A stretch of DNA of 53,945 bases from Spirochaetaceae bacterium (GCA_025355995.1 JANXYQ010000016.1:1-53945), one strand, 5' to 3'; shown: positions 5,534-35,301, counted from the stretch's first letter. The notes: generated from the sequence alone by a model not told the origin. Numbers and translations are program-made.

Positions 5534-5589
5534 ATGCGAGCTGATATTTTTGCGTTTTAATATAGTTTATTGGAGAATGAGGTTGCTTG

Positions 5590-8500
5590 ATGCTCGACAG
5601 ACAATTAGTACTCTGGAATGAGACATTCAGGGATTACCCCTTGGACAATCCCCTCACCTCGTTCCTGGAAGAGCAAGCCCTCAAGACTCCTGAAAACGCG
5701 GCTGTCGTCTTCGAAGACGATAAAGTTAGCTACGCCGAGCTTAACCGGCGGGCCAATCGGCTCGCCCGATACCTGGTAGAACGCGGCGTGACCGCCGATT
5801 CGCTGGTCGGCGTCTACATGGAACGCAGCGTCGAGATGGTCGTCGCGCTGATCGGCATCGTCAAGGCGGGCGGGGCCTATGTCCCATTCGATCCCGATTA
5901 CCCAGCGGAACGACTCGCTTTCATGTTCGAGGATTCTGCCGTCTCGATCGTCGTAACCCAGCATCGGTTCGAACATGGGGCCATCCCGGCGAGTATCGAT
6001 CGCGTCTACCTCGACGAAAAGGCATGGCATATTTCCGAGGATAAGGACAACAAGAACCTCCCCCTCCGGTCCGGACCGGAGAACGCTGTCTATATGATCT
6101 ACACCTCCGGATCGACCGGGAAGCCCAAGGGGGTCGTCAATATCCACAAGGGGCTAGTCAACCGTCTCCGGTGGATGCAGGACGAATACCTGCTCACAGG
6201 CGATGACCGCGTCCTGCAGAAAACGCCGTACAGCTTCGACGTATCGGTTTGGGAATTTTTCTGGCCGCTTATGACAGGCGCCAGCATCGTCATGGCCAGG
6301 CCCGGCGGCCATCGCGAAACCGGCTATCTCATCGACGCCATCGTGCGCTATCAAATCACGACCATGCATTTCGTGCCCTCGATGCTCAACCTCTTCGTCG
6401 GCTCCGAAGGCCTGGAGAGAATATCCAGCTTGAGACAGGTGATGTGCAGCGGGGAAGCCTTGCCCTTGGCTCTGGCAAAGCGATTTTTCGAGCGCCTGAG
6501 CCATACCAGGCTGCACAACCTGTACGGACCGACAGAGGCATCCATCGACGTCACCTACTGGGAGTGCGAAGCCGACTCGACGAAGAACGTCGTGCCCATC
6601 GGCCGCCCGATCGCGAACACCCAGATGTACATCCTTGACGAGACGATGAACCCGGTGCAGGTCGGGGAGGAAGGCGAACTCCACATCGGGGGAATCGGAC
6701 TGGCCCGAGGCTATTGGAACCGGCCTGAGCTCACCGCCGAGCGTTTCGTCGAGGACCCCTTCTCCTCCGCACCCGGATCCCGACTCTACAAGACGGGCGA
6801 CTTGGCGCGCTACATGCCGGACGGGGCGATCGAGTACCTAGGCCGTCTCGACTTCCAGGTCAAGCTGCGCGGATTCCGCATTGAGCTGGGCGAAATCGAA
6901 GCCGCGCTGCTCAAGCATCCCGACGTTTCCGAAGCGGTCATCCTCGCAAGCGAGGATGACCTTGAGGAGAAGCGGCTCGTCGCCTACCTCGTCGCGAAGC
7001 CCAAGGCCAATCCATCAATCGGCAAACTGAAGTCCTTCCTTCTGGTCAGCCTCCCGGACTATATGGTCCCAGCCCGCTTTATATTCCTTGCTGAAATGCC
7101 CTTGCTTCCCAACGGCAAGGTCAATCGCAGGGCTTTGCCCAAAGACTTGCAGGAGCGACCCGAGCTGGCGGAAATGTTTGTGGCGGCTCGGTCCGAGACG
7201 GAAAAAACCCTGGCGCGCGTCTGGTCGAGCCTCCTCGACATCAAGGACGTGGGGATTCGGGACAATTTTTTCGAACTCGGCGGCAACTCGCTTTTGGCTA
7301 TACGCCTCGCTGCCGAATTGCGCAGGGCTTTCCAGCGCGAGGTTCCCGTGGTCAAGGTATTCCAATACCCTACGATCGAGAAGCTCGCCATCCATCTTTC
7401 GGATGACGATTCGGGCAGCCGGAAATTGATCGAGGACGTTTTCGAACGGGCTACCCGGATTCGTATCGGGCGATTTACGGGCGACGCCAATGCGGACGGC
7501 GTCGCCGTCATCGGCATGGTCGGCCGGTTCCCCGGCGCGCCCACGGTGGACCAATTGTGGGAGAATCTGATCAACAAGGTGGAGTCGATCACCCGGTTCT
7601 CGCCGGAGGAGCTGGGACCAGGCATCGACGACGAGACCAGGAACGATCCGAACTACGTACCCGCTCGAGGGGTCGTCGCGGACGCCGACAAGTTCGACGC
7701 GCCTTTCTTCGGGATCGGCCCTCTCGAGGCCAAGGTCATGGACCCCCAGCACCGGATTTTCCTGGAACTCGCCTGGGCCGCTCTCGAGAACGCCGGCTAC
7801 GATCCCGACCGTTTCCCGGGAATGATCGGCGTCTTCGCCGGGGTCGGCGACAATCATTACTACGTCAACAATGTCCTCGGCTATCCCGAGCTCATCAAGA
7901 CGGTCGGCAAGATGATCGTCGGCTACGGGAATGAAAAGGACTATATAGCCACCAGGGTCTCCTACTGCCTCAACCTGACGGGCCCGAGCGTGAGCGCCAA
8001 CACCGGCTGCTCCACCTCCTTGCTTGCGATCGATCATGCATTCAAGTCCCTCATCGATTTCGAGTGCGACATGGCCCTTGCGGGTGGCGTCGACGTGTTC
8101 TTCCCGCAGAACAGCGGTCAACTCTACGAAGAAGGCGGAACTTTTACCAAAGACGGCCACTGCCGTCCCTTCGACGAGCAGGCCACCGGTACGATGTTCT
8201 GCGACGGCGCGGGCATCGTGGTGCTCCGGCGCCTGGAGGACGCCATCGCCGCCGGAGACCGCATCTATGCCGTGGTACGCGGCGTGGCCAAGAACAACGA
8301 CGGGGCCAACAAGGTCAGTTTCCTGGCTCCCAGCGTCGAGGGGCAGGCCCAGGTCATAGCCTTGGCCCAGGCCCAGGCCGACGTCCCGGCCGAGACGATC
8401 TCGTACATCGAGGCCCACGGGACGGGCACTCCGTTGGGCGACCCCATCGAAATCGAAGCCCTCACGAAGGCTTTCCGCGCCACCACCGATAAGACCCAAT

Positions 8501-11500
8501 TCTGCCGTATCGGGTCCATCAAGGGGAACATCGGACACCCCACTATCGCCTCGGGCGTGGCGGGTTTTATCAAAGCCTCGTTGTCCCTCTACCACGAGAC
8601 CATCCCCGGCACGCTCCACTTCGACAAGCCGAATCCCAAGATCGACTTCGCCAACAGCCCCTTCGTCGTCGTCAAGGACACGCTTCCCTGGCCGCGGAAC
8701 GCCCAGCCTCGGAGGGCTGGCGTGAGTTCATTCGGCTTTGGAGGAACCAACGTACATGCCGTGCTGGAGGAGGCCCCTCTACTTGCGCCATCCGGGCCTT
8801 CGCGCCCCAAACAGCTGCTGTTGCTGTCGGCGAAGACCGAAGCTGCCCTGGGACGCCTGCGCCAGCAATACATCGACTTCCTGAACGCGAACGCTGGCGC
8901 CAATCTGGCCGATATGGCCTATACCCTGATTATCGGGCGACGCCATCTTGCCTTACGCGAGGCCATCGTCGCCGCTGATCCGAAGGACGCCATCGCCCAG
9001 CTGCGAAGGAACGCAGAGCGGAAGGCTCCGGCACCCAAGCTAGCCAACTTGAACCCGGAAATCGTCTTTCTCTTTCCGGGCCAGGGATCCCAGTACGTCA
9101 ACATGGGGCGCAACCTCTACGTTCAGGAGCCGCTATTCCGGCGGTATGTCGACGCCTGCTGTGACATCCTCAAGCCCCACCTGGATCGCGACCTGCGAGA
9201 GCTTCTTTTCCCGGAAGCGGGGGACGAGAACACGGCCGCCGAATCGCTCAGGGACACCTACTACACCCAGCCTGCCTTGTTTACCATCGAATACTCGCTA
9301 GCCCAGTTCTGGATGAGCCTGGGAGTCGTCCCTTCAGCCCTGATCGGACACAGCGTAGGCGAATTCGTCTGCGCCTGTCTCTCGGGGATCGCCTCCCTGG
9401 AGGAAATCCTCCCCATGGTAGCGCTCCGCGCCAGGCTAATCCGTAGCCTGCCGAACGGCTCGATGCTGTCGGTGCGTTGCGCCGCCGAGCAAATCCAGGA
9501 CCGGCTTCCGCCCCTCATTCAGCTGGCGGCCGCCAACAGCCCGAACCTCTGCGTCGTCTCGGGACCGTACGAAGCGATCGACGCCTTCGGCCGGGTACTG
9601 GATGCGGAAGGCCTGATGACGAGCAAGCTTCACACTTCCCATGCCTTCCACTCAGCCATGATGGATCCAATTGTGGATGAGTTCGTCGCGGCCATGAGCC
9701 GCGTCTCCTTCACCAAAGGAAAGATCCCCATCGTGTCGACCTGCACGGCAGAATGGCTTAAGGATACCGAGGCTTCGTCGCCCGAATACTGGGGTCGGCA
9801 CCTGCGAATGCCGGTCCTTTTCTCCGACGCCGTGTCGCAATTATTGAAAGAACCGGGGAAGGTCTATCTGGAGGTAGGTCCGCGAGATGTCCTCACTACG
9901 CTTACTCGTCAGCACGTGGAAATAAATGAGCGCGACCGCATGATCGCGTCCCTATCCGGGAGCGCCGACGACGATGCCGAATGGACTGCCCTGCTATCGG
10001 CGATCGGACGGTTGTGGTCGCTCGGGGTCAGCCTCGATTGGACGGCCTTCTTCGAGCACGAACAGCGAGGCCGCATCCCTCTTCCAACCTATCCTTTCGA
10101 GCGAACCAGCTACTGGCTCGCCCCCGTTCTCCAGACCGTCGCGCCGGGCTCGAAAGCTATGACTTCTGCCGTTTTTCAACAGCAATTTACCGTCCCTACG
10201 GAGACAGAGTCGATTGACAGCACGCCAGTCTCCGCTTTCGACCCGGTTCTATCCGTCCTATCGAGCATATTGAAGGAAACACTGGGCGTCACACTGGATC
10301 CTCAAGGCTCGGATACTCCATTCTTGTCTCTGGGCGCCGATTCCCTTATGCTGATGCAGCTTGGAAGAACCGTCCAGAGTCGCTTCGGTCTGGGCGTATC
10401 CTTCCGACAGCTCGTCGAGGAATTCGCGACGCCGAGGCTTCTGGCTGATGCAATCCGTGCAAAAGCAACTGCTGCGGAACCTTTGAAAACAATCCCGACG
10501 ATATCGAGTGAACAGACTCAATACACCATCGCCGGATCTGCGGAAACGGCGCGGCTCGGATCGGACGAATATGGAAAGGCAGCGTGGTTCCTGCCTCATC
10601 CGGCGCTCCAAGGTCGCTTTTGCCGCATCGTGGGGCCAGGCCTGGCTAGGGGAGGCGAGTTCATCTATCCAGTCGTCGAGGCCACGAACGATCCGTTTGC
10701 AGGCAATGATAGGAAGGATTTCCCCCTGACGCCAAGCCAGCGGACGATCTGGCTTTCAACTCAACCCATAGATCTGGGGCTCGAAGCCAGTTGCGCCAAT
10801 AATGAATCATTCTCAGTGCATCTTAAAGGGCCTGTGGACGATCAAGCTGTCCTACGGTCCTTGCAGGCCTTGGCTGACATTCACGAGGCATTAAGAGGTC
10901 ACACCAACAGCGACGGGACGCGAATGATTCTGGAACCGACCGTCACTGTTTCAATCAGCAAAGAAAATATTGCCTCGCTTCCCATTGCGGACCGGAATGT
11001 TGCCCTAAGCCAGCTTCGGGATTCCGAAGCGCGCGCACAGTTTGCGCTCGACAAGGGCCCTTTGTTCCGGGCTTCCGTCATTCGACTTGCCCCGGACGAA
11101 CGGGTCGTCCTTCTCGTCGTCCATCGGATCGTCTGCGATGGCTGGTCATTGGATGTTTTGCTCGAGGATTTCGGGAAACTCTATTCGGCCTTCGTAGGCT
11201 CGATGCCCCTCGTCGCTCTTCCGCGACACGGTTACTCAGACTATGCAAAGTACCGGCTAACTGCCGAGTTCGAGTCAAAGATGCTCGCCAGCACGGATTA
11301 CTGGAATCAGCTTTTCCTTGATTCCCCGCAAAGACTCGAATTGACGGGACACCGGACGCATGGAATACGACAAACCTGTAGAGCCGTAAGCAGTTCCCTT
11401 CGACTGTCGGAATCCGTCGTCAGCTCGGTTCGAGGCTTTGCCCGCAGCCAAGGCGTCAGCTTGTTTTCCGTGATGCTGTCCGCATTCGCGACTCTCATTT

Positions 11501-12861
11501 TCGAGCTCTCGTCAAGGAAAGACTTCGTGATCGGCGTGCCTATCGCCGGCCATCCCGATGCCCTGATGGAAGACGCGGTGGGACCATTGGCCAATGTCGT
11601 TCCGCTCAGAATCAGGATCACAGCAGGACAAACATTCGTGGAATTCTGCCGGATCATCCATCAAATGATCCTGAGCGCTCAGGAACATTCAGCGGTGAGT
11701 GCCGTAGAACTGGAGCCGGACAATTCTCTCATCACGATAGTGTTCTCTCATACGCATAAATACCCGCAGGAGAAACTGAGATTCGAGGGATGTCGCACGG
11801 ATTATCAGCTCAATCCCCGGACTTTCGAGATATACGAAATGAGCCTGAATGTTATCGAATCGCACGATAGCATGGAGCTCTTGGCCCATGCCAATATAGC
11901 TTTCTACGACGAGGTATGGTTGAGGGAACAGCTGGATGAACTCGCGCGACTCCTTCGGGGAGCCTGCATCACGTCCTCTGCTGCTTACCCCTCCATTGCC
12001 CAGCAGGTCGATCTTGCGAGCCCGAACATGCCGACAGACATCAAGATAGCGGCGAATCGAGTCATCGCTGAACCTCCGATCGTGATTACTCTCCAAAAAG
12101 GCAGTCCCGGGCATTCTCCTTTGATTTGCCTTCTGGGGATCCAACTCTACTTCGACCTCGCGATGGCCATAGACGATGGGACTCCTGTCATTGGTATCCA
12201 TATTCCGATGCTGCATGATGCGCATCATCGGCCTGCGCTGAATGATATCGTACACCATTACCTGGATGTGGTCCGATCGGTGCAGCCATCAGGACCATAT
12301 TACCTGGCTGGGCTCTGCTTGGGTGGAATGGTGGCTTATGAAGTGGGTCGCCTACTACAGGAGCGGGGAGAAAAGGTTCATCTAGTTGTGTTGTTCGACG
12401 CTGTTCTGCCGCGAGGACGACATACCGACCTGCTTCGGTTCCTGGTACATAATCTAGCCCGTCCCGATCGGATACTCCGCAAGGCAATCCAGAAAGTAGG
12501 GCGCTTCGCAAGTCGAGCAGTATTCTTTCCTTGGTCGAAGCCTTCCCCGGCCGCGGAGGAATCATTTGTCGAACTAATTATTGGAACCCCGGGCATCATC
12601 AGCGGTGTAGAATGGCTGGCTGCCACTGGGCAAGCATTGGACGGAGACTTGATTGCCTTTCGAGCCGCAGGCGAAAAGCTGGCTCCTTGGGATATCGTCC
12701 ACCCCGATATGGGATGGGCCTCAGCAGCGCATTCGGTGCAATTTTTCTCGATTGATAGCGATCACTTGGGAATTGTTCGTCCGCCCCAGTCTCAGAAGCT
12801 TGCGGAAATAATAAAGCAAGCCATAGCGAAACGAAAGGAAACCGGACTTCCCTCGATTTAG
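5590..12861 (+). CDS. Hybrid NRPS-PKS megasynthase, A(Ser)-PCP-KS-AT-ACP-C-TE
   Basis: Single-chain assembly line of 2,423 residues. Domains: adenylation ~20-515 (YTSGSTGKPKG at 171-181, Lys510); PCP (Ser567 in LGGNSL); ketosynthase ~636-1062 (Cys807, His943, His983); acyltransferase ~1158-1455 (GHSVG Ser1255 and HAFH 1351-1354, which indicates malonyl-CoA); ACP (Ser1585 in LGADSL); condensation ~1700-2120; thioesterase ~2178-2415. Pocket residues D217 V218 W221 H260 M285 S287 L311 I319 D320 K510 closely match the known serine code. Oddities: there is no upstream C domain, no KR/DH/ER, the C motif is HRIVCDG (second His is Arg1846), and the TE nucleophile is Cys2243 in GLCLGG with Asp2270 and His2392. 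ATG 5590 has TGAGG 7 bases upstream; the TTG one codon earlier is too close. No tailoring or export genes adjoin. The product, perhaps a serine-malonate-derived small molecule, is unknown. Confidence 0.95.
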   Translation: MLDRQLVLWNETFRDYPLDNPLTSFLEEQALKTPENAAVVFEDDKVSYAELNRRANRLARYLVERGVTADSLVGVYMERSVEMVVALIGIVKAGGAYVPFDPDYPAERLAFMFEDSAVSIVVTQHRFEHGAIPASIDRVYLDEKAWHISEDKDNKNLPLRSGPENAVYMIYTSGSTGKPKGVVNIHKGLVNRLRWMQDEYLLTGDDRVLQKTPYSFDVSVWEFFWPLMTGASIVMARPGGHRETGYLIDAIVRYQITTMHFVPSMLNLFVGSEGLERISSLRQVMCSGEALPLALAKRFFERLSHTRLHNLYGPTEASIDVTYWECEADSTKNVVPIGRPIANTQMYILDETMNPVQVGEEGELHIGGIGLARGYWNRPELTAERFVEDPFSSAPGSRLYKTGDLARYMPDGAIEYLGRLDFQVKLRGFRIELGEIEAALLKHPDVSEAVILASEDDLEEKRLVAYLVAKPKANPSIGKLKSFLLVSLPDYMVPARFIFLAEMPLLPNGKVNRRALPKDLQERPELAEMFVAARSETEKTLARVWSSLLDIKDVGIRDNFFELGGNSLLAIRLAAELRRAFQREVPVVKVFQYPTIEKLAIHLSDDDSGSRKLIEDVFERATRIRIGRFTGDANADGVAVIGMVGRFPGAPTVDQLWENLINKVESITRFSPEELGPGIDDETRNDPNYVPARGVVADADKFDAPFFGIGPLEAKVMDPQHRIFLELAWAALENAGYDPDRFPGMIGVFAGVGDNHYYVNNVLGYPELIKTVGKMIVGYGNEKDYIATRVSYCLNLTGPSVSANTGCSTSLLAIDHAFKSLIDFECDMALAGGVDVFFPQNSGQLYEEGGTFTKDGHCRPFDEQATGTMFCDGAGIVVLRRLEDAIAAGDRIYAVVRGVAKNNDGANKVSFLAPSVEGQAQVIALAQAQADVPAETISYIEAHGTGTPLGDPIEIEALTKAFRATTDKTQFCRIGSIKGNIGHPTIASGVAGFIKASLSLYHETIPGTLHFDKPNPKIDFANSPFVVVKDTLPWPRNAQPRRAGVSSFGFGGTNVHAVLEEAPLLAPSGPSRPKQLLLLSAKTEAALGRLRQQYIDFLNANAGANLADMAYTLIIGRRHLALREAIVAADPKDAIAQLRRNAERKAPAPKLANLNPEIVFLFPGQGSQYVNMGRNLYVQEPLFRRYVDACCDILKPHLDRDLRELLFPEAGDENTAAESLRDTYYTQPALFTIEYSLAQFWMSLGVVPSALIGHSVGEFVCACLSGIASLEEILPMVALRARLIRSLPNGSMLSVRCAAEQIQDRLPPLIQLAAANSPNLCVVSGPYEAIDAFGRVLDAEGLMTSKLHTSHAFHSAMMDPIVDEFVAAMSRVSFTKGKIPIVSTCTAEWLKDTEASSPEYWGRHLRMPVLFSDAVSQLLKEPGKVYLEVGPRDVLTTLTRQHVEINERDRMIASLSGSADDDAEWTALLSAIGRLWSLGVSLDWTAFFEHEQRGRIPLPTYPFERTSYWLAPVLQTVAPGSKAMTSAVFQQQFTVPTETESIDSTPVSAFDPVLSVLSSILKETLGVTLDPQGSDTPFLSLGADSLMLMQLGRTVQSRFGLGVSFRQLVEEFATPRLLADAIRAKATAAEPLKTIPTISSEQTQYTIAGSAETARLGSDEYGKAAWFLPHPALQGRFCRIVGPGLARGGEFIYPVVEATNDPFAGNDRKDFPLTPSQRTIWLSTQPIDLGLEASCANNESFSVHLKGPVDDQAVLRSLQALADIHEALRGHTNSDGTRMILEPTVTVSISKENIASLPIADRNVALSQLRDSEARAQFALDKGPLFRASVIRLAPDERVVLLVVHRIVCDGWSLDVLLEDFGKLYSAFVGSMPLVALPRHGYSDYAKYRLTAEFESKMLASTDYWNQLFLDSPQRLELTGHRTHGIRQTCRAVSSSLRLSESVVSSVRGFARSQGVSLFSVMLSAFATLIFELSSRKDFVIGVPIAGHPDALMEDAVGPLANVVPLRIRITAGQTFVEFCRIIHQMILSAQEHSAVSAVELEPDNSLITIVFSHTHKYPQEKLRFEGCRTDYQLNPRTFEIYEMSLNVIESHDSMELLAHANIAFYDEVWLREQLDELARLLRGACITSSAAYPSIAQQVDLASPNMPTDIKIAANRVIAEPPIVITLQKGSPGHSPLICLLGIQLYFDLAMAIDDGTPVIGIHIPMLHDAHHRPALNDIVHHYLDVVRSVQPSGPYYLAGLCLGGMVAYEVGRLLQERGEKVHLVVLFDAVLPRGRHTDLLRFLVHNLARPDRILRKAIQKVGRFASRAVFFPWSKPSPAAEESFVELIIGTPGIISGVEWLAATGQALDGDLIAFRAAGEKLAPWDIVHPDMGWASAAHSVQFFSIDSDHLGIVRPPQSQKLAEIIKQAIAKRKETGLPSI

Positions 12862-25292: not shown

Positions 25293-27263
25293 TTAAGCGC
25301 CCCCCAGGTCGACGTGGGCTCGTAGTTGCTCCAGGCAGCCAGGGTTGCGCAGGGCGGCTAGGTTGGCTGGCAACCGGCCGTTCACTGCGTCTCGCGCAGC
25401 GCGTTCGGAGAGCTTGCCGTTGTGCGTGGCGGGCAAATCGTCGACCGCGGCTATAACGGCCGGAACGTGGAGCATGGAGGCCCGGCGAGAGAGTTCCTTC
25501 TTGATGCGAAGCGTCAGCGGACGGTCGAGCGTCACCCCCTCGCGCAAAACCAGGAGCAGGATCAATCGAGACCCTCCGATCTCGCCCGGCGACAATTGCT
25601 CGACCGCCATCGCCTGGCGAATCTCGACGAAATCCTGGAGGACCGAGTAGATCTCGGCAGGGCCGATTCGGACTCCCCGGATGTTCATCACGCCGTCGCT
25701 GCGACCCAGGATGCGGGCGCCGCCGCGCGGCGTGAGGATTACGAAATCGCCGTGCGTCCAGATGCCCGGATTCTGGGAAAAATAGGCCGCGTGGAATTTC
25801 GAGCCGTCGGGGTCGTTGAAAAATGCGATGGGACGCGAGGGAAAGGGATTGCAGCAGATAAGCTCGCCTACCTCGCCGCCGCCATCCGACTTCAGGGAGC
25901 GCAGGTCGATGCCCAGGCTGATCGATTGGGCCTCGCCCCTGAAGACGGGCAACAGCGGATTTCCGAGGACGAAGCAGCCCAGGATATCGGTGCCGCCCGA
26001 AATGGACTGCAGGGGGAGCGATCCCGCATTCTCGGCGACCCAATCGTACATCTTGTCTCCCAGGACCGAGCCCGTGGACTGAATCGCCCGCAGCCGCGTT
26101 AAGTCGGCGCAGTCCCTGGGTACGATCGCCGCGTCGCGGCAGTATTGAAGGTAGGCTGGACCCGTCCCGAAGACGGATACGCGCTCCTGGCCTACCGCGC
26201 GCCACAGCGAGTCGAGCGCGGGGAAGGTGGGAGAGCCGTCGTAGGCTACGATCGCCGTTTGCGAGGCGAGCGCCGACAATTGCCAGTTCCACATCATCCA
26301 GCCGCAGGAGGTCGTGAACAATAAACGGTCGCCGGGCTTGAAGTCCGAATGCAGCCTCTGCTCCTTCAAGTGCTCGAGGAGAGTGCCGCCGACCCCGTGC
26401 ACGATGCACTTCGGGGCACCCGTGGTGCCCGACGAGAACATCACGAAAAGCGGGTGGTTGAACGGGAAGCGGGGCCAATTAAAGGCTTCGGAGGAAGAGC
26501 CCTTCGCCTCCAGCTCCGCCAAGGTGACGACCTCTCGGCCCAGGCCCGAAACGGCCGCGAGGTCGCGATCCAGCGAGACGAGGATCCGCGCCGTCGGCAG
26601 GCCCGCGACGACGGCCTCCAGGCGATCGCGCAGCGGACGGATCGAGCCTTGGTAGGGATAGGATCCCACTGTTAATAACAGTCCTGGATCCAGCTGCTTG
26701 AATCTCGCCAGGATGGCCTCGTGGCCCTGGTCTGGACCGACCGACGACCAGGTCGCGCCCAAGCCCGTCGCCGCGAGGCAGGCGACGATTGCCTCGTCGT
26801 CGTTCCTCGCGATGGCAGCGACGCGAGCGCCCGGTCCCACGCCCAGTGCGCGAAGGCTCCTCGCCGCCGCCTCGACGCGCGCGCGAAGCTCGGCCCTCGT
26901 CCATTCCGATCGACGTCCCGTCTCGTCGAGCGCGATGAGCGCCACGGTCTCATCCTGATCGGGGGACGTCGAGCGCAGGAGGTTGCCCGTATAGGACAGG
27001 CGGAGCTCGGGGAAGAAGACGGCGCTCTCGATGGCGTCGCCCGCGCAGACGGGTTCCGAGGTGCCTTCCGTCTCCGGCGCGGCCCAAGCCAGGAAGCATC
27101 GCCAGAAATCCCGCCAGGAGGCGGCCGACCACTTGGAGAACTCGAGCCAGTCTTCGAAGTCGATGCCTGCAGCGCGGGCGCAGTACGCCATGAAATAGGC
27201 CATCTGCGAGCGCGATGAAACCTCGGGTTCGGGGACGAAAATCGGCCGGTCGGACTCGGTCAT
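25293..27263 (-). CDS. Acetoacetyl-CoA-synthetase-like adenylate-forming ligase
   Basis: Adenylating enzyme of 656 residues with full acetoacetyl-CoA synthetase length and layout. There is a cap region before the fold, then VMFSSGTTGAPKCIVH (P-loop, A3), TTSCGWMMWNWQLS, a further binding motif ISGGTDILGCF, THGDFV (A7) and LPATHNGKLSE carrying the late catalytic Lys. Such enzymes activate acetoacetate or related short beta-oxo/hydroxy acids with ATP. Here the ATG overlaps the stop of an acyl carrier protein gene (ATGA), so the natural acceptor may be that carrier rather than CoA. This is analogous to DltA charging DltC. The acyl group (acetoacetyl, 3-hydroxybutyryl or other) is inference. Confidence 0.85.
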   Translation of the reverse strand: MTESDRPIFVPEPEVSSRSQMAYFMAYCARAAGIDFEDWLEFSKWSAASWRDFWRCFLAWAAPETEGTSEPVCAGDAIESAVFFPELRLSYTGNLLRSTSPDQDETVALIALDETGRRSEWTRAELRARVEAAARSLRALGVGPGARVAAIARNDDEAIVACLAATGLGATWSSVGPDQGHEAILARFKQLDPGLLLTVGSYPYQGSIRPLRDRLEAVVAGLPTARILVSLDRDLAAVSGLGREVVTLAELEAKGSSSEAFNWPRFPFNHPLFVMFSSGTTGAPKCIVHGVGGTLLEHLKEQRLHSDFKPGDRLLFTTSCGWMMWNWQLSALASQTAIVAYDGSPTFPALDSLWRAVGQERVSVFGTGPAYLQYCRDAAIVPRDCADLTRLRAIQSTGSVLGDKMYDWVAENAGSLPLQSISGGTDILGCFVLGNPLLPVFRGEAQSISLGIDLRSLKSDGGGEVGELICCNPFPSRPIAFFNDPDGSKFHAAYFSQNPGIWTHGDFVILTPRGGARILGRSDGVMNIRGVRIGPAEIYSVLQDFVEIRQAMAVEQLSPGEIGGSRLILLLVLREGVTLDRPLTLRIKKELSRRASMLHVPAVIAAVDDLPATHNGKLSERAARDAVNGRLPANLAALRNPGCLEQLRAHVDLGGA

Positions 27264-27526
27264 GCGTTGCCTCCGCCATGCGCGGTCACGTAATCGAGAA
27301 TTTTATTAACGCTGTCGAAATTCTCTCGATTCAGCAGCTTAAGTTCGATCTTGATGCGGAATTTATCCTCGAGGTACACGACCAGCGCGACGAAGCCCAG
27401 GCTGTCGAGCACGCCCCTATCCAGGAACGAGGCCTCGTCATCGCCGATCTTCGCCTCGGCGTCCCCGAAGTGATACTTGTCGTCCAGCCAGTCGATCAAT
27501 AGCCGGCGCATGTCGGCGCGGGTCAT
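27260..27526 (-). CDS. Acyl carrier protein (DltC-like role)
   Basis: An acidic carrier of 88 residues. The phosphopantetheine site is Ser42 in GVLDSLGFVAL, followed by a helix II-like segment (VVYLEDKFRIKIE) and NFDSVNKILDYV as helix III. GGAGG lies 6-7 bases before the ATG at 27526. It lies between the MBOAT gene and the ligase gene, the order expected of a dlt-type acylation operon. The ligase would load it, and the loaded carrier would donate the acyl group to the MBOAT protein at the membrane. It requires a phosphopantetheinyl transferase; a Sfp-type one is encoded at 34603-35301. Confidence 0.88.
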   Translation of the reverse strand: MTRADMRRLLIDWLDDKYHFGDAEAKIGDDEASFLDRGVLDSLGFVALVVYLEDKFRIKIELKLLNRENFDSVNKILDYVTAHGGGNA

Positions 27527-27550
27527 CCGTGCCCTCCCTTCGCCTCGCGG

Positions 27551-29050
27551 TCAAAACTGCGCATAGATGAACGTGCTCGCGCCGAGAGGCACGAAAACCA
27601 GCAGGAATACCATGGCGAGCCCGTATGACACGCCCCGAATCGGCGTCGGCAGGGCCCGGAAGCGTTCCATCAATGCTGGGCCTCTCCCGACCTGGAGAGA
27701 ATGGAAGACTACCATGAAGGCGGCGCAGAACAGAGCCATGAAGCCGAAATGCCCGACCCGGCCCGAGCCGCCGCCCAGGCCCAGAAGACCCGCGGCGAAA
27801 TCCGCCGCCGCGCGAAGGCCGGGGGATCGGAAAGGTACGAGCGTAAGCAGGAAGAAGGCCTGCGTAAGAACCCAGGCGGCCGCTCCGTAGGGTTTGGACC
27901 TGCGTGCCTCGACCCAGCGGCGATCCTTGCGGCAACGGCGTTTGTACCACTCGTCGTAGGCATGGTGGACGGCCATCGCGATGCCATGCGACAGCCCCCA
28001 TAGGACGAAGGTCCATGTCGGCCCGTGCCATAGGCCCGATGCCAGGAATACCACTACGAAGCCCGCGCCTACCCGCCCGCGGAACCGGGACCGTCCCGTC
28101 GTGAGCGGCGCGAAGATGTAGTCGAAGAGCCAGGTATTGAGGCTGATATGCCAACGCCGCCAGAATTCCGGAAGGCTCTTGGACAGGAAGGGATAGCGGA
28201 AGTTCTCGGGCAGGGTCAACCCGAACAGCCGGCCGGTTCCGATAGCCATCAGGGAGTAGCCCGCGAAGTCGCAAAAGAGCTGCGTCGCGTAGGCCGCCAG
28301 CGCTATCCATAAAGCTCCGGCGGAGTAGGCTCCGGGGTTCGAGAAGGCGGGGGCGACCAGGTTAGGCGAGAGCCAGTCTGCGACCAACGCTTTCATCGCG
28401 AAGCCGAGGAGAAACGAGGCCGCGCCTTCCGCGACGTCATCGGTGCGAAGCGCCCGGCGTTCGTAGTATTGCGGCAGCATCGCGCGCGTCCGGACTATCG
28501 GGCCCGCGATGAGTTGCGGGAAAAAGGCCACGAAGGCCGAGTAGGCCAGGGGATCCCTACAGGCCGGCGAGCGCTCCCAGTAGACCTCGAGAAGGTAGCC
28601 TACCTGGATGAGGGTCGTGTACGAGATGCCCAGGGGCAGGGCCAGGCGCAGGACAGGCATCGCGTCCGATATGCCCGCGGCGTCGAGAAGGGCGTTGAGC
28701 GATTGGGAGAAGAATCCCGCGTATTTGAATAGGCCCAGGAAGCCCAGCTGCATGATGACGGCGATGACGGCGATGGCCTTTCTTTTTTTCCGCATAATCG
28801 CGGCTTGCGCCTCATCCATCCCCTCGGTCGGCCGGGCGTCCAGCCAGACTCCCGCGGCGAAAGAGGTCGCGACCGCGGCTGTCAGCACCACCAGGAGCCT
28901 CGGGCTCCAGGTTGCGTAGAACGCGACGCTCGCCAGGAGCAGGATGGCGTTCTGCCAGTTCCTGCCGGAGGCTCCTCGTCGAGGACCGACCCAGTACAGC
29001 AGGAAGACGGTCGGGAAGAAGACGGCGAATTCCACTCCGGTGAAGCTCAT
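27551..29050 (-). CDS. MBOAT-family membrane O-acyltransferase (DltB/AlgI-like)
   Basis: Polytopic enzyme of 499 residues with about ten helices. Family marks are EFAVFFPTVFLLYWVGP at the N terminus, GISYTTLIQVGYLLEVYW, FFPQLIAGPIVR, WRRWHISLNTWLFDYIFAPL, and FLASGLWHGPTWTFVLWG with the invariant catalytic His. AlgI and DltB move acyl groups across the inner membrane onto extracytoplasmic glycans. Its ATG overlaps the stop of the SGNH gene (ATGA), and the carrier protein gene follows 24 bases after its stop. With its neighbours it forms a complete Dlt-like set. The donor is probably the acylated carrier protein. Confidence 0.92.
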   Translation of the reverse strand: MSFTGVEFAVFFPTVFLLYWVGPRRGASGRNWQNAILLLASVAFYATWSPRLLVVLTAAVATSFAAGVWLDARPTEGMDEAQAAIMRKKRKAIAVIAVIMQLGFLGLFKYAGFFSQSLNALLDAAGISDAMPVLRLALPLGISYTTLIQVGYLLEVYWERSPACRDPLAYSAFVAFFPQLIAGPIVRTRAMLPQYYERRALRTDDVAEGAASFLLGFAMKALVADWLSPNLVAPAFSNPGAYSAGALWIALAAYATQLFCDFAGYSLMAIGTGRLFGLTLPENFRYPFLSKSLPEFWRRWHISLNTWLFDYIFAPLTTGRSRFRGRVGAGFVVVFLASGLWHGPTWTFVLWGLSHGIAMAVHHAYDEWYKRRCRKDRRWVEARRSKPYGAAAWVLTQAFFLLTLVPFRSPGLRAAADFAAGLLGLGGGSGRVGHFGFMALFCAAFMVVFHSLQVGRGPALMERFRALPTPIRGVSYGLAMVFLLVFVPLGASTFIYAQF

Positions 29051-30072
29051 TGCGCAGCCCCCGCGAGGAATGATAGATCCCCCGCCAGGGCCCAGGCGGC
29101 CAGGCGTTCATTCCCGTCAGGGAGGACATGGTCGAGGTCGGGCGCGAAGTCGTCGTCGGTCAGCGGGCTGGAGGCGGTTATGTCCACGAATCGGATCCCC
29201 TTCTCTTGCGCGATCGCCCGCATCCTCTGGGAAAACTGGCGCAGGGTTGTGTCCTTCGCCTTCTGGGTGAGGGTGCCAGGCATGCGCGGGTAGAGTAGCA
29301 GGGTAACGTCCAGATCTCGCCCCTTGAAATACGAAACCAATTCGTCGAAGGCCTTCATCTGCGAAGGCTCGAAGAGGGACTGCTCGCCTCCCTCGATCAT
29401 AGCTTGCCAGAATTCAATGGATTTTGGGTCTTTCGCGCTCGAAGGCGCCTTCCTGCTGATCGAAGCTCGCAGACCCTCTATGATGCGGTCATGGCCGCGG
29501 TCCTGCACCAAGATGGATTTCGGCCAAAGCTCCCGCCATATCTTCTGGAGGAAGTTACGGTTGTAGTTGTTCAGGTTGTTGGCGCACAGATCGGCGAGGA
29601 AATCCCGCCAGCGCCAGGCTCGAGCCGGTAGACCCATCGTGATGGAAGAAGTGCCATTGCCTTGGGAGGTCGAGTCCCACCACTCGGTCACGATTAGGAC
29701 GTGACGAAGGGACGGCCGCCGGAGCGCGCCCGAGCTCGTCCGGGCCTCGATGAGCGGCTTGATTCGGTTTTCCAGGACCCACGCATAGTTCGTGAGCTTG
29801 CCCCACTCCACGGGAACGGACTGCACGCGAACCTCGCCGTGGGTCCGTTCGTAGAGCGCGCGGCCCAGCGCGACGAAGCTGCGGGCGTGGCTGGATCCCA
29901 CGACGAGTACGGTCGGATCGCCGGCCGCGTACTGCAGTATCGCCGAATCGACCTCGAGCAGGGGGTTCAGGGGCACGACGGTCTGCAAGGCCGCATCCGT
30001 GGCTGCCACTGTCGCGAAAGCGCAAAATCCTACCAACAGCAGATTTCGCCAACCTCCAAGCATGCCCGACAT
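29047..30072 (-). CDS. SGNH-fold membrane-anchored acyltransferase/esterase (DltD/AlgJ-like)
   Basis: A 341-residue protein with one N-terminal membrane anchor (LLLVGFCAFATVAATDAAL) and an extracytoplasmic domain. It has the SGNH motifs VLVVGSSHARSF (nucleophile Ser near residue 61), VTEWWDS, and DLDHVLPDGNERL near residue 315, supplying the Asp-x-x-His-like pair. The same arrangement is seen in AlgJ/AlgX and DltD partners of MBOAT proteins, which complete acyl transfer to the polysaccharide. GGAGG lies 5 bases upstream of the ATG, and its stop overlaps the MBOAT start. A 126-base gap separates it from the ABC permease gene upstream, so an internal promoter is possible. Confidence 0.85.
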   Translation of the reverse strand: MSGMLGGWRNLLLVGFCAFATVAATDAALQTVVPLNPLLEVDSAILQYAAGDPTVLVVGSSHARSFVALGRALYERTHGEVRVQSVPVEWGKLTNYAWVLENRIKPLIEARTSSGALRRPSLRHVLIVTEWWDSTSQGNGTSSITMGLPARAWRWRDFLADLCANNLNNYNRNFLQKIWRELWPKSILVQDRGHDRIIEGLRASISRKAPSSAKDPKSIEFWQAMIEGGEQSLFEPSQMKAFDELVSYFKGRDLDVTLLLYPRMPGTLTQKAKDTTLRQFSQRMRAIAQEKGIRFVDITASSPLTDDDFAPDLDHVLPDGNERLAAWALAGDLSFLAGAAQ

Positions 30073-30198: not shown

Positions 30199-31002
30199 CT
30201 AGAACTGCACGAGGCTGCCTTCCATCTTCGCCCGCGCCAGGGCGAGCTTGAGCAGGTAGAAGCCGGCGGGGCCGACCACGAGCGTGAATATGGCGAGGAA
30301 GCCGAGGGCCGGGAGCCATTCGCCACCATTCCCTGGCACAAGGAGTATCTCTCTGACCGCCTTCGCCGCCTGCGTGATAGGCAGGAAGAAAGAGATCTTC
30401 TGCACGGGGAGGGGAAGGACTTCCACCGGGAATACGAGGCCTCCGAGGAGGTAGCTCGAGGTTCCGAAAATAAAGTTGATAGGGTTCCCCCGTTTGAAAA
30501 CCATGATGAAGGCGGCGGAGATCATTCCCAAGGACAGGAAGCAGAGGAAGGTGAGGGCGAGGATCAGCAGGACCATCGCGACTTGGGCGATCGAGACCTT
30601 CAAGCCGATGATGAGTATCGCGATGCCGAGATAGAAGACGCTCTCCAGGAAGGACTCCACGAAGGACCAAAGGGAATTCCCGAATAGGATGGCGTTGGCC
30701 GAGGTCGGCGTTATGAGGAGGGCCTCGAGGGTTCCCTGGACCTGAGCCTCTCGCACCTGTCCCGACAGGGAGTATAGGCCGGTCGACACGAAGGTGCTCA
30801 CCGACATGCCGAGCAGGGTGAAGGCGAAATAACTATTGCCGTAGCGGGCCAGGTATTCCGAAAAGCTGTTGTTGAAGGTCTTGCCGATGAAGAAGAGGAA
30901 CAGGATGCCGACGATCAGGCTGCCGAAATTGAGGATAAGCCGGAATCGATAGCTCATGAGCTCATAGAAGTCCCTTTTGATGAAACTGAGCATTTTACGC
31001 AT
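30199..31002 (-). CDS. ABC-2-type transporter permease
   Basis: Inner-membrane permease of 267 residues with six helices. An ABC-2 core is visible in QVREAQVQGTLEALLITPTS, which corresponds to the cytoplasmic coupling region, with FGTSSYLLGGLVFPVEVLPL near helix 5. The protein belongs to the group that includes Wzm/TagG-like glycan exporters and DrrB-like drug exporters. The start overlaps the ATPase stop by 8 bases, so the two subunits are coupled. Position at the head of a glycan operon suggests export of the polysaccharide or its lipid-linked precursor. Export of the peptide encoded just across the divergent promoter is an alternative. Confidence 0.88.
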   Translation of the reverse strand: MRKMLSFIKRDFYELMSYRFRLILNFGSLIVGILFLFFIGKTFNNSFSEYLARYGNSYFAFTLLGMSVSTFVSTGLYSLSGQVREAQVQGTLEALLITPTSANAILFGNSLWSFVESFLESVFYLGIAILIIGLKVSIAQVAMVLLILALTFLCFLSLGMISAAFIMVFKRGNPINFIFGTSSYLLGGLVFPVEVLPLPVQKISFFLPITQAAKAVREILLVPGNGGEWLPALGFLAIFTLVVGPAGFYLLKLALARAKMEGSLVQF

Positions 31003-31975
31003 CGGGCCGTATCCTCCTATTCAGCAGTTCCAGGAGGTCATCCTGCGGGCGGAAGGCTTCCAGGAGCGCCCCGCCTTCCAGGACGAAGGTTCGGATGAGC
31101 TCTTCCTGGTCCGTTCCCGCCGGATCGAGAGTCACCCTAAGGCAGCCCTTATCTCGCGCCGATACGCCGGCCCCGTGCCGGCGCAGCCACGCCGCCGGCG
31201 CCTGACCCTCGAAGCGCAGCTCCAGCTCAGGGTTGCCGCCCATCAAGTGCCGCAATTCGCCGAGCCTGCCTTTTTCTACAATCAGCCCCCGATCCAGGAT
31301 GATGACCTGATCAGCTAGGCGCCGGGCTTCCTCGAGGTCGTGGGTGCAGAGGAATACGGTCGCGCCGCGCTTGCCGATCAAGGTCTTCGTTATGAATTCC
31401 CAGAAATCCTCCCGCGCCAAGGGGTCGAGGTGGGAGGCCGGCTCATCGAGGAGGTAGAGCTCAGGGTTGCCGACCAGCGCGCGCGCGATATTTAGCTTCT
31501 GCTTCATGCCGGTTGAATAGAGGCGATACGGCTTATCCGCCGAATCGAAGATGCCGCTTTCGGATAGGGCCTCATCGACGCGGGCTTTCAAGGCCTTGCC
31601 GGCTAAATCGTACAACGAGCCGAAGAACAGGAGATTCTGCCGCCCAGTCAGTCGCCAGTAGAAGGCTCTCTCGTTCTGTGTGACTAATCCTATCTTCGCC
31701 TGGATAGACCTATCCCAGCGCTCGCGGGGGATGCCGTCATACCTGATGTCGCCCGAATCGGGGGTGATCAAGGATGCGAGGATCTTGATGAGGGTGGTTT
31801 TCCCGGCGCCGTTGGGCCCCAGGAGGCAGGATACCTTGTTGCGCGGAATCTCGAGATCGACTGCGGTCAATGCTCGCTTGATGGGCCGTTTCCGGAAAGG
31901 ATTGCCGATCGGTTCCTTGAAGGACTTGGATACGCCGCTCAGAGCTAGCAGTATTTTGTTCTCTTGTTGGTCCAT
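30995..31975 (-). CDS. ABC transporter ATP-binding protein
   Basis: ATPase subunit of 326 residues. Walker A is LLGPNGAGKTTLIKIL, the Q-loop is GLVTQNERAF, the signature is YSTGMKQKLNIARAL (variant LSGGQ), Walker B with the catalytic Glu is LYLLDEPASHLDP, and the H-loop is CTHDLEEA. A C-terminal extension of ~90 residues after the nucleotide-binding domain could be a regulatory or substrate-sensing part, but it is shorter than the carbohydrate-binding domain of Wzt. It pairs with the ABC-2 permease. It is the first gene of the leftward operon, and its ATG lies only a few bases after the predicted transcription start, so the mRNA may be nearly leaderless. Confidence 0.92.
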   Translation of the reverse strand: MDQQENKILLALSGVSKSFKEPIGNPFRKRPIKRALTAVDLEIPRNKVSCLLGPNGAGKTTLIKILASLITPDSGDIRYDGIPRERWDRSIQAKIGLVTQNERAFYWRLTGRQNLLFFGSLYDLAGKALKARVDEALSESGIFDSADKPYRLYSTGMKQKLNIARALVGNPELYLLDEPASHLDPLAREDFWEFITKTLIGKRGATVFLCTHDLEEARRLADQVIILDRGLIVEKGRLGELRHLMGGNPELELRFEGQAPAAWLRRHGAGVSARDKGCLRVTLDPAGTDQEELIRTFVLEGGALLEAFRPQDDLLELLNRRIRPDA

Positions 31976-31993
31976 GTCGGCGCATTATATACT
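31964..31993 (+). promoter_or_regulatory. Rightward promoter of the peptidase-HPrK-PqqD operon
   Basis: TTGTTG at 31964-31969 and TATACT at 31988-31993 are separated by 18 bases. The predicted start at about 32000 lies at the ATG at 32003, so the transcript would be leaderless, in keeping with the lack of a Shine-Dalgarno. The -35 box lies inside the 5' end of the opposing ATPase gene. Confidence 0.45.
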
Positions 31994-32013
31994 TCCGCGG
32001 ATATGCAAGGCAA
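31984..32013 (-). promoter_or_regulatory. Leftward promoter of the glycan/acylation operon
   Basis: On the reverse strand TTGCCT (32013-32008) and a perfect TATAAT (31989-31984) are separated by 18 bases. The two -10 boxes of the divergent promoters overlap, so the two operons would compete for polymerase. Predicted leader length is only about two bases. Confidence 0.5.
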
Positions 32014-32464
32014 TGAACGCCTGAGGAGCGCGGAAGCTCACGAGTGGCTGGATTTTTACAGCGGCGGGCACGAGGGCGAAATACTTCTTCCGATGCTGTC
32101 CGGTAGCATGGCCGACGTGCTCCTTCCCGGCGATATCCTGACCGTACTGCCCTTGGGGAAGGAGGGGGTACATGCCGGCGATATCGTCGTATTCCGCGAA
32201 GGCGGCAAGCTCGTAGCCCATCGGCTCATCTTCGTTTTCAGGCTGTTCTCTTTCTCTCTCTTCATCGAGAAAGGGGATGCCAACCCGAATGCGTCGATCT
32301 TGAGGGCGAGGAGCATCGTTGGGAAAGTCTCCGCCGCGCGCAGACAGGGGAGGATTATCCCGATCGGGAGAGGCCCTTCGGCCGGTACCAACGCATGGCA
32401 CTTGTTGCTCGAGCTCCGGAAGCGCTTACAGAAGAGGATATCGGGGCGCGATGCACGAGTATAA
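32003..32464 (+). CDS. S24/S26-type serine peptidase without membrane anchor
   Basis: A 153-residue protein with the signal-peptidase-like core LPMLSGSMADVLLPGDILTV (nucleophile Ser in SGSM), AGDIVVFREGGKLVAHRLI and FIEKGDANP. The HR of AHRLI occupies the place of the Ser-His dyad of the archaeal/ER (SipW-like) branch. Classical signal peptidase I has a Lys there. Unlike SipW it has no evident transmembrane helix, so it is probably cytoplasmic or peripheral. It is the first gene of a three-gene operon with HPr-kinase-like and PqqD-like proteins. Such trios accompany ribosomally made, modified peptides. It may cleave the leader of the peptide encoded at 33645-33800. ATG 32003 is the first in-frame start after the promoter. 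Confidence 0.75.
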   Translation: MQGNERLRSAEAHEWLDFYSGGHEGEILLPMLSGSMADVLLPGDILTVLPLGKEGVHAGDIVVFREGGKLVAHRLIFVFRLFSFSLFIEKGDANPNASILRARSIVGKVSAARRQGRIIPIGRGPSAGTNAWHLLLELRKRLQKRISGRDARV

Positions 32465-33299
32465 TCTACGAATTGGGAGCGTAGTCGTATCCCTCGATTT
32501 TCGCTATGAGCGGTACAAGCTGGCATTCATGGATTATTTCCAGCGGCCATCCCATCCTTCGCCAGGGGATATCCGGCTCAAGCTCAAATTCAAAGACGAT
32601 ATCAAAGGCCTCGCGGAGATCCCAAACTCGCTTTTCCTGACCAAGCGAGGCGACGGTAAGGGCTTCTCGGTCGCGGAGGGGCTGATCGAGGGCAAGTACT
32701 CGCCGAAGAGCGGAGAGGGCGAGCTCGTCGTCCAATCGATCATCATGGAAGGCAATTTCGCCCGCATCTTCGAGCAGATCCTCTACCAGGCCTTTTGGTC
32801 GGCCGTTCGGAGAAAAGGACTGAGCGCGCTCCTCATTCATTCCAGCGCCGTCGTCCGAAACGGGAAGGGCTATATCTTCACGGGCAGGTCGGGCTCCGGC
32901 AAGAGTACGATAGCTTCACTATGCGCGGGTTCGAAGGTTCTGAATGACGAGATCGCCCTTATAGATCTTTCGGGAGAGCAGGCCATCGTCTCCGATACGC
33001 CATTCAACGGTCTTTTCCCGGATAAGGTCGAGGGCTCGGCCCCGCTTTCGGCCGTACTGCTCCTGAAGCAAGCGCCTTTCCATCGAGTGGCGCGCGCATC
33101 CTCGGCGGAGAGCATCAAGACTCTCTCCAAGGAAATCATCCCCCCCATGGGGCTGGAAACGCCGCTTGCCTCGACCGTATATTGGGATATGCTGGATTGC
33201 GCCAAGAAGATCAGCGATGCGGTTCCGCTCTACCTCATGGAGTTCTTGCCGAATCCCGGTTTCTGGGAATGCATCGATCGCGAAGAAAGGAATCCCTGA
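32451..33299 (+). CDS. HPr-kinase-like P-loop protein
   Basis: A 282-residue protein. Its second half resembles the HPr serine kinase C-terminal fold: LLIHSSAVVRNGKGYIFTGRSGSGKST holds the P-loop at 145-153, then VLNDEIALIDL and GLFPDKVEGSAPLSAVLLLKQ. The first 120 residues are an uncharacterised beta-rich region. HPr-kinase-related proteins of this type regularly accompany PqqD-like proteins in peptide-modification loci (the HprK-related/PqqD systems), although their substrates are mostly unknown. It overlaps the peptidase gene by 14 bases, and its stop overlaps the next start as TGATG. I infer a peptide or carrier kinase; direct HPr phosphorylation is unlikely without PTS genes here. Confidence 0.8.
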   Translation: MHEYNLRIGSVVVSLDFRYERYKLAFMDYFQRPSHPSPGDIRLKLKFKDDIKGLAEIPNSLFLTKRGDGKGFSVAEGLIEGKYSPKSGEGELVVQSIIMEGNFARIFEQILYQAFWSAVRRKGLSALLIHSSAVVRNGKGYIFTGRSGSGKSTIASLCAGSKVLNDEIALIDLSGEQAIVSDTPFNGLFPDKVEGSAPLSAVLLLKQAPFHRVARASSAESIKTLSKEIIPPMGLETPLASTVYWDMLDCAKKISDAVPLYLMEFLPNPGFWECIDREERNP

Positions 33300-33574
33300 T
33301 GACCGAGGACAGCCGTACCCCGAAAAAGATGGAAAAGCTCCTGGAGCGAGAGATCGACGACGAGATAGTGGTACTCTCCCCCGAGGGGAAATTCTTGCAT
33401 AGCTTCGAGGGGTCGGCGCGATTCATCTGGAGCTTGATAGACGGGCTCCGCACGATCGATTCCATCCTCGATTCCATTATCGAGGAGTATCAGGTCGAGC
33501 CTGGAACCGCCCGAAACGACCTGGAAAACTTCCTTGCGGAACTTCAGGACCTGTCGCTGATCCGGTTCCGGTAG
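33299..33574 (+). CDS. PqqD-like peptide chaperone
   Basis: A 91-residue PqqD-family protein, a winged-helix fold that binds the leader of a precursor peptide and presents it to modifying enzymes. Typical features are DDEIVVLSPEGKFLHSFEGS (the usual hydrophobic beta-strand pair and leaving-turn), ARFIWSLIDG (the family W-x-L-I/L-D-G), and a helical C terminus ending with LQDLSLIRF. TGATG coupling to the HPr-kinase-like gene ensures co-expression. The convergent short gene at 33645-33800 has a leader-like N terminus and is the obvious partner. No radical SAM or cyclase gene is in the window, so the chemistry it would serve is unknown. Confidence 0.85.
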   Translation: MTEDSRTPKKMEKLLEREIDDEIVVLSPEGKFLHSFEGSARFIWSLIDGLRTIDSILDSIIEEYQVEPGTARNDLENFLAELQDLSLIRFR

Positions 33575-33575
33575 G

Positions 33576-33611
33576 CCTTAATAAAAAATAACCCCAGCTT
33601 TCGCTGGGGTT
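33576..33611 (-). terminator. Intrinsic terminator of the short-peptide gene
   Basis: Reading the reverse strand, AACCCCAGC and GCTGGGGTT form a perfect 9-bp stem (33611-33603 and 33598-33590) with a 4-base loop, followed at once by ATTTTTTATT. This is a textbook Rho-independent terminator for leftward transcription. No T tract follows on the other strand, so it should not efficiently stop the pqqD-like transcript. Confidence 0.85.
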
Positions 33612-33644
33612 ACGGGAACAAGGAAAAACGAATAGTTGCCGAGC

Positions 33645-33800
33645 TTACCACTGCCACGGCCACCAGCCGCCTTTCTTTCCCTTCGGCATTGGCGGGAATT
33701 TAGGCCCGCTGCCGGGTCCGCAAGCTCCGTAGCTCCCAAAGACGCCGATCTGGACGCTCTCCGTCTTTACTACGGGCGCGGAATACTGCTTTTTCCCCAT
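33645..33800 (-). CDS. Candidate RiPP precursor peptide (51 residues)
   Basis: A short gene encoding a probable ribosomally synthesised, post-translationally modified peptide. The N-terminal part (MGKKQYSAPVVKTESVQIG) has the Y-x-x-P-x-V/L pattern seen in leaders recognised by PqqD-like domains. VFGSYGACGPGSG could hold the cleavage and modification region with its single Cys. The C terminus is Gly/Pro/Lys-rich and ends in GGWWPWQW. A strong Shine-Dalgarno (AAGGAGG) lies 4 bases upstream of ATG 33800; 17 earlier in-frame codons lack one. It has its own consensus promoter and an intrinsic terminator and converges on the peptidase/HPrK/PqqD operon. Mature structure and activity are unknown. Confidence 0.7.
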   Translation of the reverse strand: MGKKQYSAPVVKTESVQIGVFGSYGACGPGSGPKFPPMPKGKKGGWWPWQW

Positions 33801-33841
33801 GCTACCTCCTTCTTTTACGATTTGGGTACGATTATTACGAT

Positions 33842-33870
33842 ACTGTATCACTAATTTGAGGATCTGTCAA
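33842..33870 (-). promoter_or_regulatory. Sigma-70 promoter of the short-peptide gene
   Basis: On the reverse strand a perfect TTGACA (33870-33865) and TACAGT (33847-33842) are separated by exactly 17 bases. The predicted start is near 33835, giving a 35-base leader with an AAGGAGG site. This is the best promoter match in the window. Confidence 0.75.
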
Positions 33871-34602: not shown

Positions 34603-35301
34603 CTATTCGACAAATGGAAGGTTATCAATTTGAAACTGCCCAATTTCGCCTCCTTCCCCGATAGACGCGTCCACAGCCAGGAAGTAGCGGCTTCTCCGCC
34701 CTACCTCAAGGAGCATCCGTCCGGTACTTTGCGCGGGGGGCAGCGCCAAGCCCGCGGGGGCCTCGACCAAGGGTTGGCTCAAGCCGCGCCCTGTAGCCTT
34801 GAGCCAGGCCTCCTTTTGGACGAATAGCGAGAGGAAGCGCTCCCAGGAAGCTTCTCCGGGTTCCTGTTCTATCCACTCCCGTTCCTGGTCGCCGAAGAGA
34901 CTTCGCGCGATGCCGAGGTAGTCGCCGCGCGGATGCCCGGCGCCTTCGATGTCGATGCCGATCTCGCGGTCCGCGGCGAGGGCCAGCGCCAAGCAACCGT
35001 TAGCGTGGGACCAATTGAAGCGAATGGCGCAACCGCGTATGAAGGGCTTCCCGTATTCCCCGAGTTCCAGCCGCCGATTCGCGTCGGGAATTCCCTCCAG
35101 GTCGGACAGCGCGTCGCGGAGCAGCCGTCGGCTCAGGCACCAGGAAGTCTTGGCGCCTTGGTGCCTGAACCTCGCCATGCGCTCGCGCTCCTCGGGGGAC
35201 CAGTCTGCCAGGCTGAGGAGGCGATCGTCGCCCAAGGAGCCCTCGTGCTCGAGAACCAGCACGAGGGCGGTCCCAGGCTCGAGCCGTCGTCGAGATGCCA
35301 T
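34603..35301 (-). CDS. Sfp-type 4'-phosphopantetheinyl transferase
   Basis: A 232-residue enzyme that moves phosphopantetheine from CoA to the Ser of carrier domains. The core motifs are present: RFNWSHANGCLALALA, EIGIDIEGAG (Asp117 and Glu119, Mg binding) and FLSLFVQKEAWLKATGRGL (Lys163, Glu164, Lys168). Length and the tandem half-fold match the Sfp/Gsp branch, which serves NRPS and PKS proteins and often other carriers. Within this window the PCP and ACP of the megasynthase (5590-12861) and the Dlt-like ACP (27260-27526) are candidate substrates. It follows the cadherin-like lipoprotein gene after 33 bases; functional linkage to that gene is unclear. The ATG at 35301 has no strong Shine-Dalgarno. 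Confidence 0.88.
   Translation of the reverse strand: MASRRRLEPGTALVLVLEHEGSLGDDRLLSLADWSPEERERMARFRHQGAKTSWCLSRRLLRDALSDLEGIPDANRRLELGEYGKPFIRGCAIRFNWSHANGCLALALAADREIGIDIEGAGHPRGDYLGIARSLFGDQEREWIEQEPGEASWERFLSLFVQKEAWLKATGRGLSQPLVEAPAGLALPPAQSTGRMLLEVGRRSRYFLAVDASIGEGGEIGQFQIDNLPFVE

Follow-up and report, generated by a model that had tools for sequence, protein, structure and literature searches.

A RiPP cassette in a Spirochaetaceae genome that probably works like the LPPs of Bacillota

The closest described systems to the one that we report here are the Linear Polyphosphorylated Peptides (LPPs) of Bacillota, known from the lppA-K-B-S-D-N genes of Paenibacillus alginolyticus (Popov et al., May 2026; PMC13381572). 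The leader of the precursor LppA reads YxxPxVLxHQxIxFETxxS, and its Y-16 and P-13 are required for binding. The HprK-like LppK polyphosphorylates Ser3 of the LppA core, as established by experiment. The SipW-type peptidase LppS, together with the RRE protein LppB (RRE: recognition element of ribosomally synthesized and post-translationally modified peptides, or RiPPs), cleaves after Thr-1, and S29, H68, and D93 of LppS are required. The other parts are an NTP (nucleoside triphosphate) transferase, LppN, and the MsbA-like LppD; neither the role of the NTP transferase nor the final product was found. LPPs work without a radical SAM (S-adenosylmethionine) enzyme, and the main text of that paper does not mention one. 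LPP loci are flanked by capsule loci, and LPPs are stated to be restricted to Bacillota (PMC13381572). We found no second paper on LPPs in the literature that we searched. Here we describe a cassette with similar parts in a Spirochaetaceae bacterium (GCA_025355995.1). It lies in a stretch of 53,945 nucleotides (JANXYQ010000016.1:1-53945), which we call the window.

The core of the cassette is three coupled genes on the plus strand, which encode an S26-like peptidase (32003..32464), an HPrK-like kinase (32451..33299), and a PqqD-like protein (33299..33574). Their open reading frames overlap by 14 bases and 1 base, in agreement with what had been predicted from the sequence. A gene of 51 codons on the minus strand (33645..33800, starting with ATG; MGKKQYSAPVVKTESVQIGVFGSYGACGPGSGPKFPPMPKGKKGGWWPWQW) converges on them. 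This gene would encode the precursor, with the leader at about residues 1–22 and the core at about residues 23–51. The original prediction was that these four genes form a RiPP system, and co-occurrence of the short gene with the trio was set beforehand as the test. We found that the precursor accompanies the trio in every genome in which we located it.

Specifically, a search with the kinase located cassettes in nine further genomes, or ten with the window's own. One is from the same family (G002), four are from the same phylum, Spirochaetota (G098, G109, G161, and G175), one is from Latescibacterota (locus L010), and three more make up the nine. All nine contain a homologous precursor. The peptide from G002 has 50 amino acids, is 53% identical, and is encoded in the same converging position, and precursors were also found at all of the remaining Spirochaetota loci and at L010. 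In the other three genomes, the precursor is on a different contig from the trio, and in two of these it is beside an ABC exporter. Among 393 Spirochaetota genomes, a model of the precursor matches five, and these are exactly the five with a full-length match to the kinase. The chance of this coincidence would be ~1e-11, under an assumption of independent genomes that does not hold. Because the model was trained on these very precursors, the informative part is its absence from the other 388 genomes. Among 64 Latescibacterota genomes, we found no further kinase beyond L010. The window's genome has no second copy of the precursor, and a profile of the precursors had no match in the PDB.

All ten precursors contain the leader motif KxYxxPx[VIL], and K4, Y6, P9, G19-V20-F21-G22, and Y24 are invariant. 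The spacing from the Tyr to the start of GVFG is always 13 residues. The core is variable in sequence and ranges from 21 to 34 residues. In every precursor, a Ser is among the first five residues behind GVFG (0.0003 expected for shuffled cores, assuming independent rows, which these are not). The three Spirochaetota precursors whose loci lack a radical SAM enzyme (the window, L007, and L031) read GVFGSY, which puts the Ser at Tyr+17; Ser3 of LppA is at Tyr+18. The original prediction described a core with Cys and Trp. The core is indeed Trp-rich, but its Cys and Trp are not conserved among the relatives, and the Ser directly behind GVFG is the better candidate for modification.

The proteins of the trio also resemble their LPP counterparts. 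The S26-like protein is a soluble, SipW/Sec11-type enzyme and the probable leader peptidase; it matches TIGR02228 (3.2e-10) and SipW (5.5e-6), both below the cut-offs. By alignment, it keeps Ser35, His73, and Asp92, which match S29, H68, and D93 of LppS, and this triad is kept in all of the relatives except L030. At L030 (8414-8920, from G098), which does have a radical SAM gene, the catalytic His is replaced by Tyr (TTYRF instead of TTHRL or VAHRL). The best structural match to the predicted model of the peptidase, which is of modest confidence (pLDDT 67), is the human signal peptidase complex. The HPrK-like protein matches HprK_rel_A (1.8e-8) and ScmC (1.2e-5), again below the cut-offs, and its predicted model, which is confident (pLDDT 88.5), has the PEPCK/HPrK fold. 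H130, K151 of the Walker A motif, D166, and E167 are invariant in the ten genomes. The third protein is a discrete RRE with the PqqD fold (PF05402, 4.6e-17). Its D74 and F78, also invariant in the ten, align with D70 and F74 of LppB, which contact the Tyr and Pro of the leader; N33 of LppB is not kept.

In sum, the cassette shares with LPPs a SipW-type peptidase with Ser-His-Asp, a discrete RRE, an HprK-like kinase, an NTP_transf_5 protein (encoded on another contig in the window's genome), an ABC exporter, a YxxP precursor with a variable core, the absence of a cyclase, and polysaccharide genes in the surroundings. That it works like an LPP is well supported. We regard it as a genuine RiPP cassette, and by analogy its RRE, kinase, peptidase, and exporter most likely lead to a phosphorylated linear peptide. 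The individual steps, including the sites of phosphorylation and cleavage, are likewise proposed by analogy. The RRE would grip the KxYxxPx[VIL] leader. The kinase, with ATP, would add one or more phosphates to Ser23, which is directly behind GVFG. The peptidase, guided by the RRE, would cut the leader off at or beside GVFG, and the adjacent ABC-2 exporter would secrete the linear, Trp-rich core. We expect cleavage within or beside GVFG because the register of the Ser is near that of Ser3 in LppA; a cut at GVFG|S would leave Val in position -3 and Gly in position -1. The original prediction offered two possibilities, that the kinase-like protein is the modifying enzyme or that partners lie elsewhere. 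The first is probably right, given the experiments on LppK (PMC13381572). Its comment that HPrK-related/PqqD pairs have little biochemistry is out of date because of the 2026 LPP paper. An LPP-type gene set outside of Bacillota, in which the leader spacing is fixed, some members have a radical SAM enzyme of their own, and the NTP transferase gene is in a polysaccharide export locus, provides new test cases for the purpose of the phosphate.

A partner elsewhere was also found: the window's genome has one NTP_transf_5 gene, on contig C100, whose product may attach a sugar or a nucleotide to the phosphate. Over 396 residues, this protein and the copy in the G002 cassette are 51% identical. Its gene is in a locus for polysaccharide synthesis and export (L097:2947-13790), between the genes for a dTDP-sugar epimerase and a UDP-glucose/GDP-mannose dehydrogenase and the gene for an SLBB-domain export protein. 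NTP_transf_5 is present in 10 of the 10 genomes, counting a copy in G419 that is remote from the cassette and not clearly orthologous. In G109, the genes for the S26-like protein and the NTP transferase are adjacent on a separate contig.

Several observations weigh against an LPP-like mechanism. First, unlike in LPPs, the NTP transferase gene is not at the locus: it is absent from the window and is on another contig. Second, only the KxYxxPx[VIL] half of the leader is kept, and HQxIxFETxxS is replaced by GVFGxY. Third, the exporter at the Spirochaetota and L010 loci is of the ABC-2 type rather than MsbA-like. Fourth, the place of the Ser varies among the relatives, from Tyr+17 (the window, L007, and L031) to Tyr+21 (L010), and Ser23 is replaced by Asp, Cys, or Ala in seven of the ten precursors. 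Finally, the RRE is no closer to LppB than to the B1 proteins of lasso peptides. Its profile scores TbiB1 and PbaB1 above LppB, and a tree of 15 rows is unresolved and has long branches. Our claim is thus that the cassette works like an LPP, and not that it descends from one. The host range is also different: LPPs are from Bacillota, and the cassette is from Spirochaetota and other phyla. When we searched a plasmid collection for LPPs of Bacillota, there was no match to LppB, and the matches to the kinase were weak and partial. Overall, the cassette is too near to LPPs to be categorically novel; it differs by phylum, leader, exporter, and association with radical SAM enzymes.

The association with radical SAM enzymes is a further difference from LPPs. 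As the original prediction stated, the window's locus has no radical SAM enzyme, cyclodehydratase, or cyclase. At four of the related loci (L010, L030, L032, and L033), a dedicated radical SAM/SPASM enzyme of 334–346 residues is encoded directly after the PqqD-like protein, between it and the precursor. These loci show that the RRE-kinase-peptidase platform can be combined with a radical SAM enzyme, so one adapter-kinase-peptidase platform can pair with other chemistry. We did not find a dedicated homolog of this enzyme in G000, G002, G175, or G420–422 (at most 93 bits, versus ~600 where it is present). In the window's genome, the best match is to a generic protein with 60 bits, and we rejected the idea of a radical SAM enzyme acting in trans. 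The four precursors that are associated with the radical SAM enzyme have Cys or Ala in the place of Ser23, with YGS further along. Also, all four have a Cys near the C-terminus, versus none of the other six (p = 0.005, not corrected for kinship). It is possible, though doubtful, that these cassettes form a GVFG-leader RiPP family that is separate from LPPs and spans several phyla outside of Bacillota. The platform would then work with phosphorylation alone (as in the window) or together with radical SAM enzymes that link the C-terminal cysteines to give phosphorylated thioether hybrids, and the phosphate would be where surface sugars are attached via NTP_transf_5.

Alternatively, the HPrK-like protein might not be a kinase for the precursor. 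It could spend ATP on another step, such as priming the core for NTP_transf_5 or aiding the peptidase, and the main modification would then be the transfer of a glycosyl or nucleotidyl group, or some unknown reaction. This would fit with the shifting position of the presumed phosphate and with the presence of NTP_transf_5 in all ten genomes (if the remote, not clearly orthologous copy in G419 is counted). Also, the family scores under every HPrK cut-off, and a structure search with the model of the HPrK-like protein ranked PEPCK over HPrK. On the other hand, all four of the catalytic residues discussed above are invariant, and both LppK and the kinases of paeninodin-type clusters, which have the same gene company, phosphorylate Ser. 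We consider a role other than phosphorylating the precursor to be unlikely.

Another explanation is that the window has a decayed cassette: an ancestral radical SAM/SPASM enzyme that cross-linked the core was lost, and what is left yields a peptide that is unmodified or has no use. In four relatives, the radical SAM gene does stand immediately between those for PqqD and the precursor. It is missing from the window, L007, and L031, and the last of these belongs to a genus in which two other genomes have the gene. However, in the genomes without the radical SAM enzyme, the trio, the exporter, and the precursor are intact and conserved, and their leaders show no less conservation than those of the other genomes. 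The cores from these genomes lack the C-terminal Cys, which suggests that they give a product that is different but functional. LPPs also function without radical SAM enzymes (PMC13381572), and we view decay as unlikely.

We also considered a lasso peptide cluster that has lost its cyclase or has it encoded at another place, and we rejected this reading as very improbable: paeninodin- and pseudomycoidin-type clusters do share the [Y/W]xxP leader, discrete RRE, HprK-like kinase, and nucleotidyltransferase, and the window's genome has two Asn_synthase-family matches that are cut off near contig ends (L005 and L006, on contigs C63 and C104), but no relative's locus has a macrolactam cyclase or a B2 protease, an S26-type peptidase stands in the place of B2, the window's core has no Asp or Glu for closing a ring, and it lacks the C-terminal Ser that is the kinase's target in that type.

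The kinase and the RRE also have SynChlorMet families (SCM; ScmC, ScmD, ScmE, and ScmF in NCBIfam) among their best matches, namely the HPrK-like ScmC and the PqqD-like ScmD. The scores are far below the curated cut-offs (24.8 versus 125 bits for ScmC and 32.9 versus 100 bits for ScmD). The SCM models name two radical SAM enzymes, while our cassettes have one or none, and none in the window; the relatives' radical SAM enzyme matches the ScmE model (2.3e-36). We found no mention of SynChlorMet in the literature that we searched. Separately, Spirochaetota genome G197 encodes a distinct HPrK-like protein and an ABC exporter (L034:5312-8559) with an open reading frame for 40 amino acids between them (MEQKIKTAYKKPEMTKHEPIKIVQGSGCSGLYYASLYYYY). 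This is possibly another YxxP-type RiPP in the phylum.

Returning to the window's cassette, we located all three of the expression signals that had been proposed for the short gene. On the minus strand, there is a promoter-like site (33842..33870; TTGACA-17-TACAGT, 10/12 in a consensus scan, with TG ahead of the second hexamer), a Shine-Dalgarno sequence (AGGAGG, 33805..33810) 4 bases ahead of the ATG, and an intrinsic terminator (33588..33613) with an 11-pair stem, a loop of 4, and a T run (z = -3.0 for RNA folding). The promoter alone is not rare, as 1.7 such sites are expected by chance in the 4 kb that was scanned, and neither is the Shine-Dalgarno sequence, as AGGAGG-N4..9-ATG occurs seven times in the window. 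We consider the short gene to be real because it is conserved beside homologous trios, not because of its individual signals. For the peptidase, ATG 32003 is a more likely start than TTG 31964, because the latter falls within a divergent ABC gene and the alignment of the relatives gives the extension no support.

This divergent gene encodes the ATPase of the ABC-2 exporter (30995..31975, minus strand; DrrA-like, TIGR01188 1e-60), and the permease gene is next to it (30199..31002, minus strand; PF01061 1e-16). The exporter was not part of the originally proposed gene set, but homologs of the ATPase and the permease are found at all seven loci that have a local precursor. An exporter of the ABC_membrane/ABC_tran type adjoins the precursor in just two genomes, those of L077 and L079.

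The cassette is flanked by genes for a glycosyltransferase, a polysaccharide deacetylase, an aminotransferase, and a hexapeptide transferase. A Dlt-like acylation block (25293-30072, minus strand) adjoins the exporter and encodes an acetoacetyl-CoA-ligase-like protein, a carrier protein, a DltB-like MBOAT protein, and an SGNH-like protein. On the opposite side of the cassette is a 4'-phosphopantetheinyl transferase (34603-35301, minus strand). We considered the Dlt-like genes and this transferase as members of the system but dropped them because they are absent from the G002 locus. Models of defence systems gave no convincing match. The window also contains an open reading frame of 2424 codons (5587-12861, plus strand).

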